Shown here piece by piece: positions 23,939 to 31,725 of a stretch of DNA of 64,000 bases. The notes under the pieces were generated by a model, which searched no databases, was not told the origin of the DNA, and saw only the letters and a program-made list of their open reading frames with translations. The position numbers and the translations under genes are program-made. Within the stretch, counting starts at the first letter, position 1. Every line of letters starts with the position of its first letter. Source of the stretch: Bacillota bacterium (GTDB lineage: Bacteria; Bacillota; Sulfobacillia; Sulfobacillales; Sulfobacillaceae); the NCBI GenBank assembly GCA_021821465.1, contig JAKACM010000002.1, forward strand, positions 1 through 64,000. Direction: 5' to 3'.

Positions 23939-25909
23939 TCAGGGTACAGCCACACGGTTTTTCCCTTGCCGTTTTGCATCATACATCGCATGATCGGCCG
24001 ACGCAAATAATTCTTCTGTTGTCATGGGAGCATAAAATTCCGCTGCTCCAATGCTGACGGTGGTACCAATCATTGAATCTTTCCAAGCAAATTTTCCGTC
24101 CATTTCGCGACGAATGCGTTCACCTACCGCCACGGCCTCACTTAACTCGGTACCAGGCAAAATCACGACAAATTCGTCGCCGGCATATCGGCAGGCTGTA
24201 TCCTGGTCACGAATGTTACGACGAATAACATGGGCCACGATTTGCAAGTGAGTATCTCCCGCAATATGTCCATAGTGGTCGTTTATCTGCTTCAGACTAT
24301 CTGAATCGATCAACAGCAAGGATAATGGTGAGCCCTTTCTTGATGCATGATCCACGGCTTCTTGCAACACCACAGAAAATCGACGGGAATTGCCAAGATG
24401 CGTTAAATAATCTGTCAAAGCGATAGATTCGGTCTGCTGGTATAGTTGAGCATTCTTAATGGCAATCGCTGCTTGCGATGCCACCGATAAGACAAATTCC
24501 ATGTGGTCTTCATCATAAAATATGCGATAGGATTGAACAGACATCGCGCCTATCACTTGCCCTTCACGGATTAAAGGGACAATAATAGCACTTTTAGGAA
24601 TTCGAAACGAACCGGTCGGTTGCGACGAATCCATGCTGCCATTGAGCAGTAATGGTTCTTGTTTTTGCAATACCTGTTCTGTCGGTGTGCCTGCTCCGAT
24701 ATCCATGATTTCCGGAGCATATTCTTTCCCATCATCAAATAAATATTGCATGAGAATTTTAGAAGGGTCGTCGGGAAGGTTTAAAGCAACAAAAAATGAA
24801 TCAATTTCTAATTCTTCCGTCGCAGTTTGGTGCAGAGACCGTAAAAGTGCACTCATTTCCAAATTGCCGTTCACGATCCTTCCAACCCGTTCCAGAATTG
24901 CCAACAGCCGTCCTCGTTTCAATGCATTGGTCTGAGCCTTTTCAAATCGAATTTGGTTCACAACCATTTCGCTCAAGCCTTCCAGAATAACTTTTTGATC
25001 ACTCAGAGATGTTTTTTTCTGGGCTCCGGCAAACCCCATCACGCCGATTATTGTCTCTTGATCTCGTAAAGGAATCAGGACTAACTCCCATGTATCTTCG
25101 TCAGTCAGTTCGTATGGCTGTGTTTGATTGGCATGAATTGCTAAATTAGAATAATAGCTCATTACACCCCGAGTCAATACTTGCGACTCGTAGCGCTCTA
25201 AAAAATCCCATTCTTTCCTGACATCGAAACCGGTTTGAGTAATCAATTGCGTGCCTGAGGATGTCCATTCGCAGACATAGCCTGCGTCTATATTCAGCAA
25301 ACGAATCCCGGTTTGCAAAATCGTATCTATCGAATCCGATAGACTCGAAAGTTTGACCACAGATTCCTGCAGAGTTTTTAAAGCCATCAAGTGTTCAATA
25401 TGTACGTTATTTTGTTGGAATTTTTTAATGGTCTGACGCAAAGAAAGTCCTAAAAGTGTCGCTACCATACTAAGGAATGCCAGAATGAATTCCCGCCACC
25501 ACAATTCCGGGTTCATCCAATTCCCGCAAGCTAGCCCATAACTGATCCAAATAGCCGCGATTCCCCATAATGACCAAAAGACAGAGGAGTATATCGCCAG
25601 AAAAATGATCTCAAACGAATAGAGAGCGAAGGCTTGGCTGTGAAGTGCGCCGGTTACACTTACCACCAATGAGAGAACAAGAATATCTACGAGAATCATT
25701 ACTTGATTAAATCGCGAAAGTATTTGAGCATTTTGACGACGCTTCCTTATCCATAAGGAAATGATCCAGTAAAGCGCAGCCAGCACCCATATAACCCACC
25801 CAAATGGCATTAATGCCGCGAAAATGGCCCCCAATGTCCATTCCAAGGTACGCATCGCCCAAATGACATCATTAACATCATAATGATGTTCTTCTAAATA
25901 TGCACGCAT
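23939..25909 (-). CDS. Membrane GAF-GGDEF diguanylate cyclase
   Basis: 656 residues from ATG at 25909 (GGGAG seven bases upstream; an in-frame ATG eleven codons earlier has no such site). Several membrane helices lie within about residues 20-165, followed by two GAF-like domains (about 185-335 and 340-480) and a C-terminal GGDEF domain. The active loop is YAGDEFVVILPG, an AGDEF variant common in active enzymes. RDQD five residues before it is a product-inhibition I-site. It should make c-di-GMP from two GTP under control of a membrane or small-ligand signal. Nothing indicates an operon. It could feed the c-di-GMP-controlled exosortase locus 20 kb away. Confidence 0.9.
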   Translation of the reverse strand: MRAYLEEHHYDVNDVIWAMRTLEWTLGAIFAALMPFGWVIWVLAALYWIISLWIRKRRQNAQILSRFNQVMILVDILVLSLVVSVTGALHSQAFALYSFEIIFLAIYSSVFWSLWGIAAIWISYGLACGNWMNPELWWREFILAFLSMVATLLGLSLRQTIKKFQQNNVHIEHLMALKTLQESVVKLSSLSDSIDTILQTGIRLLNIDAGYVCEWTSSGTQLITQTGFDVRKEWDFLERYESQVLTRGVMSYYSNLAIHANQTQPYELTDEDTWELVLIPLRDQETIIGVMGFAGAQKKTSLSDQKVILEGLSEMVVNQIRFEKAQTNALKRGRLLAILERVGRIVNGNLEMSALLRSLHQTATEELEIDSFFVALNLPDDPSKILMQYLFDDGKEYAPEIMDIGAGTPTEQVLQKQEPLLLNGSMDSSQPTGSFRIPKSAIIVPLIREGQVIGAMSVQSYRIFYDEDHMEFVLSVASQAAIAIKNAQLYQQTESIALTDYLTHLGNSRRFSVVLQEAVDHASRKGSPLSLLLIDSDSLKQINDHYGHIAGDTHLQIVAHVIRRNIRDQDTACRYAGDEFVVILPGTELSEAVAVGERIRREMDGKFAWKDSMIGTTVSIGAAEFYAPMTTEELFASADHAMYDAKRQGKNRVAVP

Positions 25910-25942
25910 TGTCTTTCTCCCAACACTATACAGTTCATCCAT

Positions 25943-26263: not shown

Positions 26264-26812
26264 TTATTGAGCCTTCGGATAAGGCGGCAGTTCGCGTTCG
26301 TCAACATAACCACGAAAGGGCATTTTGACCCGGTTTATAGAGCCAATATCATTAACCAGCAAGTCTGGACCTTCCCTGTTCATCTTAGCTGTTACCGTAA
26401 GGCCAATCAGCCAGTAAAAGTCGCCCATATTCAATAAATCGTCCACCCAGCACTCGAAATGGGCAATTGCATTGGCCCATAATGGCACCCCTGTGTTTTC
26501 CCCGTAAACAATTTCATTAGCTCCGAGTTGGTCCGGCGTATGAGCGCCTTGCAGAAAACGAATTAGGAGATCTTTTTGATCCTCCGCTAATAACGACAAA
26601 CCTATTCTTCGCCCTTTTCCGACAATAGTTGCGCCTTCCATTTCTTTAGCCATAGCGATCCCCATCCGGGGCGGCTTGTGAGACATCGGGCTAATCCAGC
26701 ATCCATTATGCATATGACTTTTTTGGCCGTCTGATGTGGAAATAATAAAGGTTCCTCGCCGCCTAAAATTATAAACCGGTTCTGTCGAGTCGAATTTTGC
26801 TCCGGTATCCAA
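26264..26812 (-). CDS. Flavin reductase-like (FMN-binding split barrel) protein
   Basis: 182 residues. TTG at 26812 follows GAAGGGG by eight bases and lies immediately after the polymerase stop (TGATTG), so it is translationally coupled to dnaE2. The fold is indicated by RRGTFIISTSDGQKSHMHNG, WISPMSHKPPRMGIAMAKE and a C-terminal AHFECWVDDLLNMGDFYWLIG, as in flavoredoxin/flavin reductase domains that bind FMN. A redox role on a flavin is expected, but the electron partner is unknown. Its place as last gene of a DNA-damage operon is unusual; it may simply share the transcript. Confidence 0.75.
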   Translation of the reverse strand: MDTGAKFDSTEPVYNFRRRGTFIISTSDGQKSHMHNGCWISPMSHKPPRMGIAMAKEMEGATIVGKGRRIGLSLLAEDQKDLLIRFLQGAHTPDQLGANEIVYGENTGVPLWANAIAHFECWVDDLLNMGDFYWLIGLTVTAKMNREGPDLLVNDIGSINRVKMPFRGYVDERELPPYPKAQ

Positions 26813-29800
26813 TCATTTATCCCCTTCCCGTGCCATTTTTGGCATATCTGGATGAGACCATGGAGTAATAATGCGCACATCCATCCCCCGGTTTTCCATC
26901 CGCCCTCCGACCATAATAATTCTTGTTGTCGGGCCGAATAATAAATGCCCAAATTGCTGATAGCCTTGAGACGATAACCGGGCCTCTAGTATCCCTGTTT
27001 CATCCAATAACGAAAAAAATACTACAATCTTTCCACTGCGCGTTGGCGGGCGGTGAGGACGAATTAATAATCCTACACAACGGGCAAAACGTCCAGTCTT
27101 CATCTGTTGCAGCGCAGATATAGACACAAATCCTTGGCTCTGAAGATACTGCCGCCAGGGATCCAGCCATTGCTGATGCTGACCAAACCCGCAGTATTGA
27201 TAATCCCATATATTTTGCAGCTTTGCTGAAATAGAATGTGAAGGCCCGATCCTGGATTTTAGATAAAGACCTTGCGGCATCATCAACTCTTCTATTAGCG
27301 TTTCTCGGGAACTATTTACATTATCCCACGCTCCAAGCCGAATAGTCGCCATTATTTGCGCCATATTCAATCCCAGCTCTTGCAATTGCCTCGGTGAGTG
27401 AAACTCTTCTTTTGGCCGATTATGAACAATGTGAGCAGCCAACTCTGATCCGAGATGCTTAATGAATCCCAAGCCGATTCTTAAAATCTGCTTCCCCTCT
27501 TTTTTTACCCCGACATCACTTTGATTAATATCCATGGGAAAAATTGTGACTTCACGGCGTCTGGCTTCCACTACAAGCACATCCACCGGATAATATCCTA
27601 GCGGTTCGGCATTAAGTAATCCCATAAAATACTCCGTAGGGTGATGGGTTAATAAATAAGCCGTCCGATATGCGGTTTCTGCAAAAGCCGCCGCATGAGC
27701 TTCATTAAATCCATAACTCGCATAGCCGACAATTTGTTGAAACACCGCATCGGCAACTTCTGCCGACACCCCCAGGTCCTGTGCCTTGTCTTTGAACATT
27801 GTTCCGATTTCTTGCATATCTTCCGAAGATCGTGCATGGGTCATCACCCGCCTTAAGCTGTCAGCTTCCCCTGGAGTAAATCCCGCCAAAGTACTGGCGA
27901 TAGCGATTACCTGTTCCTGAAAAAGCACAACCCCGTAGGTTCTGGACAGAATGGGTTCCAACGCTGGGTGCAGATAACTTACAGGTTCTTGTCCCCTTCG
28001 CCGAGCAATAAACGGATCCACCATATTCCCTTTAATCGGTCCCGGGCGAATAAGCGCTAAACTCGCTACAATGTCTTCCCAATGATCCGGTTGCAATCTT
28101 AATGCCAATGCACGCTGAGCAGGACTTTCTAGTTGAAAAACTCCAATAGCATCTCCTTTTTGGAGCTGCTCATATGTAGCAGCGTCATGCAAGGGAATCG
28201 CATCATAAGAAAAATTCGGTTTGTCTTCTGCCAGCGCTTGAACTGTAATATCTACTGCTGTAAATGTTCTTAAACCCAATAAATCTAACTTTAACAAACC
28301 TAATGTCTCTACGTCGCGCTTATCGAATTGAATAATTTGTACTCCTTTTTGCGACAGTTCCAGCGGGCTAATTTGAGATAAAGGATGTTTACTGATCACT
28401 ACCCCTCCCAAATGGGTGCCAATATGGCGGGGCAGTCTTTCAATTTTTGATGCCCATTGCAAAACCGTCTTCAATTTCTGATTCTCGGGATATTGCCGAA
28501 GTTCAGGGATCTCTTGCCATCTTGTTAAAATCCCCTCAAATGAACTTTCCGGAAGTGATTTGGCAAGACGGTCTAATTCTGCAATCGGAAATCCTAACAC
28601 CTTACCGACTTCGCGCAATGCCGAACGTTGACGAAAAGTTTGATAAGTCGCGACCCGGGCTACATGATCCTCTCCATAACGTTTTTGCACATAAGTAATC
28701 ACCTGATCTCGATAACGGGTATCAAAATCAATATCGATATCCGGCATTTCTTGCCGTTCCGGGCTCATAAACCGCTCAAATAACAGATTTCGGGAAAAAG
28801 CATCCACTCCCGTGATACCCAGACAATAGGCCACAACCGAATCGGCTGCCGATCCTCGTCCTGCAAATCGAATGTGCCGTTCTTGGGCAAACCGGGTCAC
28901 ATCCCAGACCACCAAAAAATATTCGGTGAAACCGGAATCTTCAATTATTCGCAGTTCATGTTGAATACGCGGCCAAACTTTCTTGATCTTCTCCCCATAA
29001 CGCCTCTTTGCCCCTTTTTTTACCAATTCTCCGAGGTACACTTCAGCACTGACATGAGGAGGTAAAGTAAAATGCGGGGCATAACGCTGATTCAAAATAT
29101 TTGGAGACTCCAAACGTTCCGCTAATTGCAAGGTGTTTCGCAGCGCTTCGGGCCAGTGGCTTAACGCAGTTTCTATAGCTGACCATGGTTTGAGATAGTT
29201 TTCCGCATTCAGATGTCTTTCGGGACCAATGTCTTCTATTTTTTTGCCGGCTCGAATGCAGGTCAACAAATCAAAGGTCCCGAAATCTTTTTTTTCCGCA
29301 TAATGAGCAGCCGATGTCGCTATTGTGGGAATGTTTTTCCACTCAGACAAGTCTGTTAAAGCGTGAAAAAATGCGCCGTCTCCCGGCAAGTAGTTTGCAG
29401 CCATTTCAATAAATAGATTGTGCCGTTCAAAGATCTGTGTGAGCCGATCCAGAATAGAGGCTATCTGGCCCTTTTGGCGCTGAAACCAGGCCTGCCCTAT
29501 AACACCCATCCGATCTCCGGTTAAGGCTACTAATCCCGGGCCCCAACGCTCTAACATTTCCCATGTGACCCGAGGTTTTAATCGAGGGGATTTTAAATGG
29601 GATTCTGACAATAATGATACCAAATTGCCATAACTGTCAGTATCAGGAACCAACACGATAAGGCGTCCTAAATTTTCTAAATCTACCTCAGCTCCCACAA
29701 CAGCCCGAACGCCAAATTGTCTAGCCTCATCTAAAAATGTTACAATTCCCGATATTCTATGCACATCGGTCAATGCAACTGTGGAAATACCCACTGCCGC

Positions 29801-29899
29801 AGCCTGTTTGATTAAGTCCCGCGGCAAGGACGCCCCTTCCAGAAATGAGAAGGCGGAATGTACATGCAAATGTGCTCCAGATTCCTTTAATGTTGTCAT
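26813..29899 (-). CDS. dnaE2: Error-prone DNA polymerase III alpha subunit, DnaE2/ImuC type
   Basis: 1028 residues. An N-terminal PHP domain (HLHVHSAFSFLEGASLP) precedes the C-family polymerase core with the catalytic aspartates in PDIDIDFDTRYRD and GRGSAADSVVAYCLGIT. Middle and tail match DnaE2, and an OB-fold with LLIRPHRPPTRSGKIVVFFSL follows. The length fits DnaE2 (about 1000-1100) rather than replicative DnaE1 or PolC. It would carry out translesion synthesis with an ImuB-like partner, raising mutation after damage. ATG at 29899 lies seven bases after the stop of a small upstream ORF; its own site is weak, suggesting coupling. Member of the SOS-type operon. Confidence 0.92.
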   Translation of the reverse strand: MTTLKESGAHLHVHSAFSFLEGASLPRDLIKQAAAVGISTVALTDVHRISGIVTFLDEARQFGVRAVVGAEVDLENLGRLIVLVPDTDSYGNLVSLLSESHLKSPRLKPRVTWEMLERWGPGLVALTGDRMGVIGQAWFQRQKGQIASILDRLTQIFERHNLFIEMAANYLPGDGAFFHALTDLSEWKNIPTIATSAAHYAEKKDFGTFDLLTCIRAGKKIEDIGPERHLNAENYLKPWSAIETALSHWPEALRNTLQLAERLESPNILNQRYAPHFTLPPHVSAEVYLGELVKKGAKRRYGEKIKKVWPRIQHELRIIEDSGFTEYFLVVWDVTRFAQERHIRFAGRGSAADSVVAYCLGITGVDAFSRNLLFERFMSPERQEMPDIDIDFDTRYRDQVITYVQKRYGEDHVARVATYQTFRQRSALREVGKVLGFPIAELDRLAKSLPESSFEGILTRWQEIPELRQYPENQKLKTVLQWASKIERLPRHIGTHLGGVVISKHPLSQISPLELSQKGVQIIQFDKRDVETLGLLKLDLLGLRTFTAVDITVQALAEDKPNFSYDAIPLHDAATYEQLQKGDAIGVFQLESPAQRALALRLQPDHWEDIVASLALIRPGPIKGNMVDPFIARRRGQEPVSYLHPALEPILSRTYGVVLFQEQVIAIASTLAGFTPGEADSLRRVMTHARSSEDMQEIGTMFKDKAQDLGVSAEVADAVFQQIVGYASYGFNEAHAAAFAETAYRTAYLLTHHPTEYFMGLLNAEPLGYYPVDVLVVEARRREVTIFPMDINQSDVGVKKEGKQILRIGLGFIKHLGSELAAHIVHNRPKEEFHSPRQLQELGLNMAQIMATIRLGAWDNVNSSRETLIEELMMPQGLYLKSRIGPSHSISAKLQNIWDYQYCGFGQHQQWLDPWRQYLQSQGFVSISALQQMKTGRFARCVGLLIRPHRPPTRSGKIVVFFSLLDETGILEARLSSQGYQQFGHLLFGPTTRIIMVGGRMENRGMDVRIITPWSHPDMPKMAREGDK

Positions 29900-29906
29900 T
29901 TTTGGC

Positions 29907-30056
29907 TTACGACAAAATACCTTGTAGTTTTCTAATCAACGACTCAACCTGAATATAAATATAATCTAACGGAGAATTCTTACGAATGCGGAATACATAA
30001 TGACCAAAATGAATAAGAGGCGAATGTCTTGGAAAAACAATAACTTTCCCCACCAA
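29907..30056 (-). CDS. Small 49-residue ORF in the mutasome operon
   Basis: TTG at 30056 lies eight bases after AAAGG (a GTG two codons earlier is also possible). The peptide reads MVGKVIVFPRHSPLIHFGHY, then VFRIRKNSPLDYIYIQVESL and ends before dnaE2. It is basic and beta-rich, with no signal. It fills almost exactly the space between the DUF6504 gene (17 bases upstream) and dnaE2 (seven bases downstream), as a real operon gene would. No family was recognised; it could act as a leader for dnaE2 translation. Confidence 0.5.
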   Translation of the reverse strand: MVGKVIVFPRHSPLIHFGHYVFRIRKNSPLDYIYIQVESLIRKLQGILS

Positions 30057-30073
30057 TACCACTGCCTTTCTAT

Positions 30074-30340
30074 CTAATCATAAACATGATAAATCCACCA
30101 TTGATTGCTTTGAGGATTACAAACCAACTCATAAACTCCTTGGGTATTCGTTAATACTCTCCAAAACCAAAGTTCGGGCTCACCACGCCACCATTCCGAA
30201 ACATCCCGCCAATAGTCAATAATGCGGATAATGTTATAAGAGGCTCCCCGCCACCGAAATCGGTAAGGCACTTTGTCTCTCAACTCAACTTTTACCAATG
30301 GCCGGAGGTAATCACCTAATCCAAAATGTGTCTCGTTCAT
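30074..30340 (-). CDS. DUF6504 protein of the mutasome operon
   Basis: 88 residues from ATG at 30340; the frame is open upstream but that part overlaps the preceding gene and is not family-like. It contains VELRDKVPYRFRWRGASYNI, IDYWRDVSEWWRGEPELWFW, TQGVYELVCN and QWWIYHVYD, the Trp-rich pattern of DUF6504. DUF6504 proteins are often encoded beside Y-family/DnaE2 mutasome genes, and their function is not established. Its ribosome-binding site is poor. Confidence 0.7.
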   Translation of the reverse strand: MNETHFGLGDYLRPLVKVELRDKVPYRFRWRGASYNIIRIIDYWRDVSEWWRGEPELWFWRVLTNTQGVYELVCNPQSNQWWIYHVYD

Positions 30341-30444
30341 CGTTCTTGGCGCAAAAGATCCCGAGCTCTCCAAGCAGAGAGAACTGCGCCCCTTCGCTCC
30401 TTTCGTTTGTACACATCTTGATAACGAGCAGTCTTTTGCGGATT

Positions 30445-31542
30445 TCAGGTAATTTTTCGTGTTTTCCATCCTGTTTGACGGCGCCAAGGATCCCAAAATT
30501 GTAACAATTGTTCACGTCTGGCAATTATTGATAAATCGGATATCATATCACCGGATTGAACGGGAGCGGATCCCCACCACATGAGTTGATCTCTGATTAA
30601 CGTCTCTGGCTGGTGGGCTTCTAAGATTAGCTGCACAAGATCGATGGAAGGAATCGTCAATATCAATGACAAAAAACGCAGCACAACCTGCCGAATATTA
30701 CGACTTGGTAAAGACCACTTACGTTCACGAATAATTGTCTCCTTGTCGCTTTGCCAAATAAGACGTAAATACCGACTTCCTTGCTGATTTTTTTGTAAAA
30801 CTTCCCCAACTTCTGTTGCCAAAAGACGGACGAGATCATGAAATCCTTGCTGAATCGGATCTTCAAAAGTTCTTTTGACACAAACCGGCTCAACGGATTT
30901 GTGCAACGCCCAAGAATGCTTTTTCTGATCTTGTATGATTTGACGAAAATAGGGAACGTCACCGACTTGTTCCCAGCCTCGTTTTTTCCATTCTCGCACA
31001 GTGCGGGTAGATAAATGGCTGATCCCTGTCAAAGGCAGTACCTTCCACACCTCATCGGTATTTTCGTGAGGAAGGACATAAGCAATCTGTGCGCCATCCT
31101 GCCAGCGTTTTGTCCACTGCTGATATTGGCTCCCGTGAATAGAAATCCACTGAGAAAGCAAGGGATTCTCCGATATTCCCATCCTTATGCGCAAAGCTCT
31201 CTGTGGAATCATTTCTTTAACAACTCGTCTCCACTCCTCATAATCCATATCCGATTGCTGCCAATATCCTTGTCCCACGTCTTCCATGTGATAAGATAAT
31301 GTATATTGCTCCATCCACACTGTTAAACCATCCAAGGTTTGCTGATAGTCTTGAGAACGCCAAGGAATTTGCCGAGCTTGGGGATATTGCCATTTCATGT
31401 TTTCAATGCTCAGACCGGATCGAATTCCTAGGTCCCATCCTTGACTATCCATGTCAAAGACCGCTTGATCTTTGACAACGATATAAGGCTCTGGGATTAG
31501 ATCGGATCGGGAAATATGTCCTAATCGCCAATAAATAATCAT
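30445..31542 (-). CDS. ImuB-like catalytically dead Y-family polymerase homologue
   Basis: 365 residues. ATG at 31542 has AGGAG ten bases upstream. Y-family traits are GIRSGLSIENMKWQYPQARQ (palm/finger block), a thumb-like LPLTGISHLSTRTVREWKKRG, and a little-finger-like C-terminal half. The two catalytic acidic motifs of active Y-polymerases are absent: the N-terminus reads MIIYWRLGHISRS instead of an aspartate-containing block, and the later position reads YHMEDVGQGY. This is the state of ImuB, which bridges ImuC/DnaE2 to the sliding clamp. First gene after the LexA-box promoter. No imuA was seen. Confidence 0.8.
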   Translation of the reverse strand: MIIYWRLGHISRSDLIPEPYIVVKDQAVFDMDSQGWDLGIRSGLSIENMKWQYPQARQIPWRSQDYQQTLDGLTVWMEQYTLSYHMEDVGQGYWQQSDMDYEEWRRVVKEMIPQRALRIRMGISENPLLSQWISIHGSQYQQWTKRWQDGAQIAYVLPHENTDEVWKVLPLTGISHLSTRTVREWKKRGWEQVGDVPYFRQIIQDQKKHSWALHKSVEPVCVKRTFEDPIQQGFHDLVRLLATEVGEVLQKNQQGSRYLRLIWQSDKETIIRERKWSLPSRNIRQVVLRFLSLILTIPSIDLVQLILEAHQPETLIRDQLMWWGSAPVQSGDMISDLSIIARREQLLQFWDPWRRQTGWKTRKIT

Positions 31543-31673: not shown

Positions 31674-31725
31674 CAAACATTTGTTCGTGCGGTGTTATTA
31701 TACCCTCCTTTTACCGATTTATCAA
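31674..31725 (-). promoter_or_regulatory. SigA promoter with overlapping LexA box for the mutasome operon
   Basis: On the minus strand: -35 TTGATA (31720-31725), 17-base spacer, -10 TATAAT (31697-31702), then CGAACAAATGTTTG (31674-31687). The last is close to the Gram-positive LexA consensus CGAAC-N4-GTTCG and covers the expected start site. LexA bound there would block transcription until DNA damage. It is about 130 bases upstream of the ImuB-like gene. The -35 adjoins a terminator for the preceding operon. Confidence 0.8.

Follow-up and report, generated by a model that had tools for sequence, protein, structure and literature searches.

A Sulfobacillus iPolY/ImuB-C/DnaE2 operon of the SOS type whose iPolY lacks the RecA-NT motif

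The stretch of DNA analysed here, called the window, comprises positions 1 to 64,000 of contig JAKACM010000002.1 from a Sulfobacillus assembly (GCA_021821465.1; 4.96 Mb in 199 contigs). Its minus strand carries, from 31542 to 26264, an operon of five genes arranged head to tail, encoding an ImuB-like protein (iPolY), a DUF6504 protein, a small open reading frame, the polymerase DnaE2, and a flavin reductase-like protein; coordinates and order are as given in the initial annotation of this DNA, which was made from the letters alone and counted 49 residues for the small frame. We read the operon as an SOS-controlled iPolY/ImuB-C/DnaE2 translesion-synthesis mutasome, which most likely (with a probability of about 0.6) functions with neither RecA nor ImuA docked on the RecA-NT site. 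The evidence that carries this reading is the absence of the RecA-NT motif from iPolY, in the window and throughout its order. The features concerned, with the expectation value given as E, are the following.

31697..31725, minus strand: sigma-70-like promoter, TTGATA-17 nt-TATAAT, agreeing with the consensus at 11 of 12 positions and tied for best among the 23 from the scan
31674..31687, minus strand: LexA (SOS) box CGAACAAATGTTTG, a perfect match to CGAACRNRYGTTYG
30445..31542, minus strand: iPolY, predicted dead Y-family protein (ImuB without ImuB-C), 365 residues; PF00817 weak, E=0.0085, below the cut-off
30571..30588, minus strand: putative beta-clamp motif QLMWWG, iPolY residues 319-324; Q319 and W323 unchanged across all 16 sequences of alignment A3
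30481..30519, minus strand: conserved C-terminal tail RREQLLQFWDPWR, iPolY residues 342-354, from sequence comparison; the RecA-NT expected directly before it is absent
30074..30340, minus strand: DUF6504, assigned as stand-alone ImuB-C, 88 residues; PF20114, 42.6 bits, E=7.7e-11; ATG at 30340
26813..29899, minus strand: DnaE2 error-prone DNA polymerase, 1028 residues; PRK05672, PF07733, PF17657, PF02811

In the published model, RecA docks on the RecA-NT motif of iPolY, and all variants were stated in 2019 to carry this motif (PMC6511836). The available text of a later paper names the system DnaE2X-iPolY-ImuBC-RecA (PMC12926913, 2026), and RecA as its physical subunit is, in what is available of both papers, a prediction (PMC12926913; PMC6511836). 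We chose 120 stretches with DUF6504 loci, 60 from relatives and 60 from the phylum, and the proportions given here are not random rates; our DUF6504 profile found a DUF6504 frame in 119 of them. The iPolY ends of most other families consist of a clamp motif, a linker, the RecA-NT helix-strand, and a tail of the form RRExxLxxxDPxR. In the window's order, whose iPolY/DnaE2 groups are families f1-f3, RecA-NT is absent in 35 of 35 iPolYs, the window's own included, and both the clamp-type motif and the C-terminal tail are kept. A first RecA-NT profile, with the protein's own family held out, gave at least 5.4 bits to 44 of the 49 PolY tails of other families, and no more than 2.9 bits to any of the 35 iPolYs of f1-f3 (shuffled sequences: 95th percentile 3.5 bits, maximum 9.6). 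The low scorers outside f1-f3 were L080, L087, L181, L187, and L168, the last of which seems by eye to be a weak motif carrier. Among 40 further loci of the class, 36 of them with a PolY, at least 3.5 bits was reached by 22 of 29 outside family f27 and by none of the seven within it. With a second, larger profile built from 65 sequences, the maximum in f1-f3 was 3.0 bits (L067) and the window gave no match; the N-terminus of the genome's own RecA scored 4.2. A search of 34 f1-f3 loci found RecA-NT in no other open reading frame (best E 0.24), and matches at E<0.05 in 49 other loci lay in 44 PolY frames only. A frameshift hiding the motif in the 104-base gap between iPolY and DUF6504 was rejected, as a comparison of 35 iPolYs showed those of relatives to terminate with the same tail.

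Several points weigh against this reading. The motif is short, and the profile has limited sensitivity: five of the further loci (L229, L232, L242, L249, L254) fell below 3.5 bits yet look motif-positive by eye, and the first profile gives the N-terminus of the genome's own RecA 2.3 bits, inside the f1-f3 range. Families f1-f3 form one clade, so the 35 absences amount to approximately one event. RecA could also have its binding surface elsewhere on iPolY, or on ImuB-C or DnaE2. Because of the weak sensitivity, the absence of RecA-NT rests on length, variability, and structure besides the score. The median distance from the clamp motif to the tail is 20 residues in f1-f3 (35 of 35) versus 37 elsewhere (the 31 of 44 with a findable clamp motif), with p=1e-7 before any correction for kinship. 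The f1-f3 linker is too short and without conserved pattern; raw identity does not discriminate here, being 0.115 for the linker (one family) and 0.116 for RecA-NT (many families). In the AlphaFold model of the window's iPolY, residues 317-341 have a predicted local distance difference test score (pLDDT) below 50 and residues 322-341 form no helix. These observations bear most directly on the view that the operon encodes an ordinary DnaE2X-iPolY-ImuBC-RecA mutasome, with RecA as a structural subunit docking via a diverged or different surface of one of the three proteins. Such docking would agree with the gene content, which is that of the published system, with the presence of RecA in the genome, with the modest power of the profile, and with the tail after the RecA-NT site, which is better conserved than the rest of the iPolY end (mean pairwise identity within the family 0.72) and might serve to bind a partner. 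It is nevertheless considered unlikely, given the short, patternless linker and the missing helix.

A DnaE2 tree of our own loci (79 rows, quick search) places the 30 f1-f3 rows in one clade (Shimodaira-Hasegawa-like approximate likelihood ratio test 100), which fits a single old loss of RecA-NT; over the tree, the absence needs three changes. Family f27 lies near f1-f3, and a single loss may cover f1-f3 and f27. Thermaerobacter (f23) keeps the motif. Other iPolYs seemingly without RecA-NT are those of L222-L228 and L181 (f27), L080 (f5), L087 (f16), and L187 (f73), which are possible further losses.

As far as literature searches show, the RecA-NT loss across the window's order would be new and the operon architecture is already known. 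Systems of iPolY, ImuB-C, and DnaE2 were earlier reported, in the text available of both papers, for an operon of Kyrpidia tusciae (PMC6511836, 2019) and for Deinococcus (PMC8072749). No mention of Sulfobacillus is made in the main text of PMC12926913 or PMC6511836, whose supplements may contain one, nor does the name occur in literature on DnaE2, ImuB, or the SOS response among the matches listed.

Concerning the individual subunits, the AlphaFold model of iPolY (mean pLDDT 78) matches Y-family polymerases over its full length (Foldseek best E 1.8e-14), with a whole-chain template modelling score of only about 0.4. The catalytic Asp residues, at both motif I positions and in SxDE, are kept in 0 of 34 f1-f3 sequences, the motif I alignment being modest; over-long sequences were omitted from this alignment (1 of 35 in f1-f3, 2 of 49 elsewhere). 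With these acidic residues replaced, iPolY is predicted to be catalytically dead. QLMWWG, which we take to be a beta-clamp-type motif, is a putative clamp contact of iPolY. The initial annotation had described the protein as a dead Y-polymerase of the clamp-binding type, and the replaced Asp residues and the presence of QLMWWG bear this out. The best match of DnaE2 is PRK05672, a model of error-prone polymerases, at 803 bits (short of the model's own cut-off of 939).

DUF6504 is assigned to ImuB-C on sequence grounds, so that iPolY and DUF6504 together represent a split ImuB, the two frames being separate in the window (iPolY stop at 30445, DUF6504 start at 30340). ImuB-C and its stand-alone form were first defined in PMC3765255, according to its available text. 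In Deinococcus deserti, the operon order is lexA, Y-family polymerase, DUF6504, and DnaE by record annotation, and the 80-residue product of the gene between imuY and dnaE2 is described as stand-alone ImuB-C in the accessible part of PMC8072749. This D. deserti ImuB-C, annotated as DUF6504 in its record, matches PF20114 over the cut-off (30 bits). In the fused ImuB of Granulicella, the C-terminus is recognised by our DUF6504 profile (5.6e-5) and, weakly, by PF20114 (14.2 bits, below the cut-off). AlphaFold predicts six strands for DUF6504 (mean pLDDT 78); a fold search against the PDB gave no match better than E=1.2 and a sequence search against PDB chains gave none, which agrees with ImuB-C being called a new fold in the text available of PMC12926913. 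The word DUF6504 was not found in the literature searched, and an uninformative name is now tied to ImuB-C. A fusion of DUF6504 to iPolY, suggested by long open frames in G041 and G048, was rejected, the loci showing separate overlapping frames.

PF20114 is present in 53 of 61 relatives, 125 of 154 genomes of the class, and 96 of 398 of the phylum. Beside the 119 DUF6504 frames, both PolY and DnaE were found in 78 cases, PolY only in five, DnaE only in five, and neither in 31. The row polY/DUF6504/dnaE2, conserved in these 78 loci of relatives and phylum, argues that the operon is not a chance arrangement. DUF6504 without DnaE2, which the initial annotation had named as counting against its reading if common, is seen in the 31 loci with neither PolY nor DnaE2 alongside, which are partly a second paralogue. 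A second DUF6504 group without PolY or DnaE2 beside it was seen in L036, L039, L047, L049, L144-L148, L150, and others, with some of the top PF20114 scores.

The initial annotation had taken the operon for a non-canonical variant of ImuA-ImuB-DnaE2 without imuA, and both points held; the searches made did not find imuA elsewhere in the genome either. PF00154 detects one RecA. The ImuA model, run on the genome, returned RecA below the cut-off and one chance match (E=0.74), and a Granulicella ImuA query returned RecA only. Over 61 genomes, ImuA model NF033429 gave no match above its cut-off, a weak test in which Caulobacter also fell below. Caulobacter has ImuA, so more weight falls on the PF00154 search and the Granulicella query. 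The genome also encodes one active-type Y-polymerase, a replicative DnaE, and a PolC-like protein. It had also been suggested that DUF6504 or the small open reading frame replaces ImuA. Both are placed where an accessory subunit might be expected, and the small frame is under mild purifying selection. Yet DUF6504, as the other half of ImuB, would not be an ImuA replacement; the small frame was found neither outside the genus nor in the genus member L031, and for that reason cannot be a general substitute; and neither protein resembles RecA in Pfam. This replacement is therefore regarded as extremely improbable.

The LexA box CGAACAAATGTTTG directly follows the operon promoter's -10 element and agrees fully with CGAACRNRYGTTYG, which we take as the LexA-box consensus and used for scoring. 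It is one of four distinct perfect sites in the whole genome. A site with at most two mismatches occurs near the gene start in 26 of 27 loci of the family (controls: 2 of 27 in a stretch inside the gene, 45 of 540 shuffles), in 3 of 7 loci of f2-f3, and in 44 of 49 of other families. One LexA above the cut-off is encoded in the genome, away from the operon. With a LexA box at its promoter and LexA in the genome, the operon is, as judged from sequence, of the SOS regulon type. These data also bear on the suggestion that the operon is decaying and lost its function along with RecA-NT. The loss of the motif would accord with decay, as would RRXRR-HNH genes, which we take to be IscB-like, inside the operons of L031 and L035, and a similar-sized gap in L038. 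The frames are, however, complete in the loci read, the SOS box and the iPolY tail are conserved across the family, and the ratio of nonsynonymous to synonymous substitution rates (dN/dS) indicates purifying selection on iPolY (0.22) and DUF6504 (0.12), which makes decay very improbable.

By analogy with homologous systems, an SOS-controlled mutasome working without RecA at the RecA-NT site could proceed as follows. After DNA damage, LexA would be cleaved and the operon expressed; iPolY would dock on the beta clamp via QLMWWG; ImuB-C, by binding both iPolY and the DnaE2 PHP domain, would recruit DnaE2, and DnaE2 would copy past lesions with errors. The iPolY would act here without the helix-strand segment that holds RecA or ImuA in the published model, and RecA would then be needed for LexA cleavage only. 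The RecA independence of the mutasome is what we infer from the missing motif. A broader proposal, which we put forward tentatively and hold to be less than even in likelihood, is that the Sulfobacillus order has a minimal mutasome without a RecA-fold subunit, in which clamp recruitment and lesion bypass require no more than iPolY, ImuB-C, and DnaE2, with RecA as the SOS trigger only. If this is true, RecA-NT was lost ancestrally (with separate losses possible in f5, f16, and f73), and docking of RecA or ImuA would be a regulatory layer that DnaE2 mutasomes can do without.

The window resembles the DnaE2X-iPolY-ImuBC-RecA system in that a single operon, without imuA, encodes DnaE2 together with a dead Y-family protein and a stand-alone ImuB-C, but the published members are said to carry RecA-NT, whereas the window and its order lack it. 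The D. deserti operon encodes the same three proteins, is SOS-controlled, and has no ImuA; it differs in having lexA as its first gene. ImuY and DnaE2 of the Deinococcus system are reported to be needed for ultraviolet mutagenesis, in the available portion of a 2021 review, which also describes as an open question whether translesion synthesis requires RecA in addition to ImuY, ImuB-C, and DnaE2 or can be achieved by these three (PMC8072749). ImuA-ImuB-DnaE2 of Mycobacterium, Caulobacter, and Pseudomonas shares with the window DnaE2, a dead Y-family protein with a clamp motif, and ImuB-C; in the window, by contrast, ImuB is split into two genes, and ImuA and the RecA-NT motif are missing. In the Sulfobacillus order, nature has deleted the proposed RecA dock from an operon that keeps its SOS box and is under purifying selection, and comparison with motif-keeping relatives such as Thermaerobacter makes the RecA question directly testable.

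The remaining features of the region are the following; the promoter and SOS box (31725-31674) and the GGDEF gene (25942-23939) were not in the initial annotation's list.

29907..30053, minus strand: small open reading frame, about 48 residues; homologues only in the genus, dN/dS 0.31 against the nearest relative
26264..26812, minus strand: flavin reductase-like protein, 182 residues, probable passenger; PF01613, E=1.1e-15
23939..25942, minus strand: GAF-GGDEF gene downstream of the operon; PF00990

The small frame, ending at 29907, may start at TTG 30056 (49 residues) or at GTG 30053 (48 residues), the latter favoured by homologues. Clear homologues were found in 6 of 8 other genus loci, with a weak one in L034; among the 120 loci searched, no homologue appeared in L031 or beyond the genus. 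It is a tiny conserved Sulfobacillus protein (MGKVIVFP...FRIRKNSPLD) without a family match. The flavin reductase gene adjoins dnaE2 in 7 of 7 genus loci with enough sequence (in L031 its frame overlaps dnaE2); outside the genus it does so only in L041 and L050, and none of 42 testable loci beyond f1-f3 shows this arrangement; it is probably a passenger of the operon. Of the testable f1-f3 loci, 20 of 27 have the GGDEF gene next to dnaE2, versus 0 of 39 others, which we regard as local synteny of the order. The RRXRR-HNH proteins of relatives are encoded at L031:4510-5880 (minus strand), between DUF6504 and dnaE2, and at L035:6751-8061 (minus strand), between iPolY and DUF6504.

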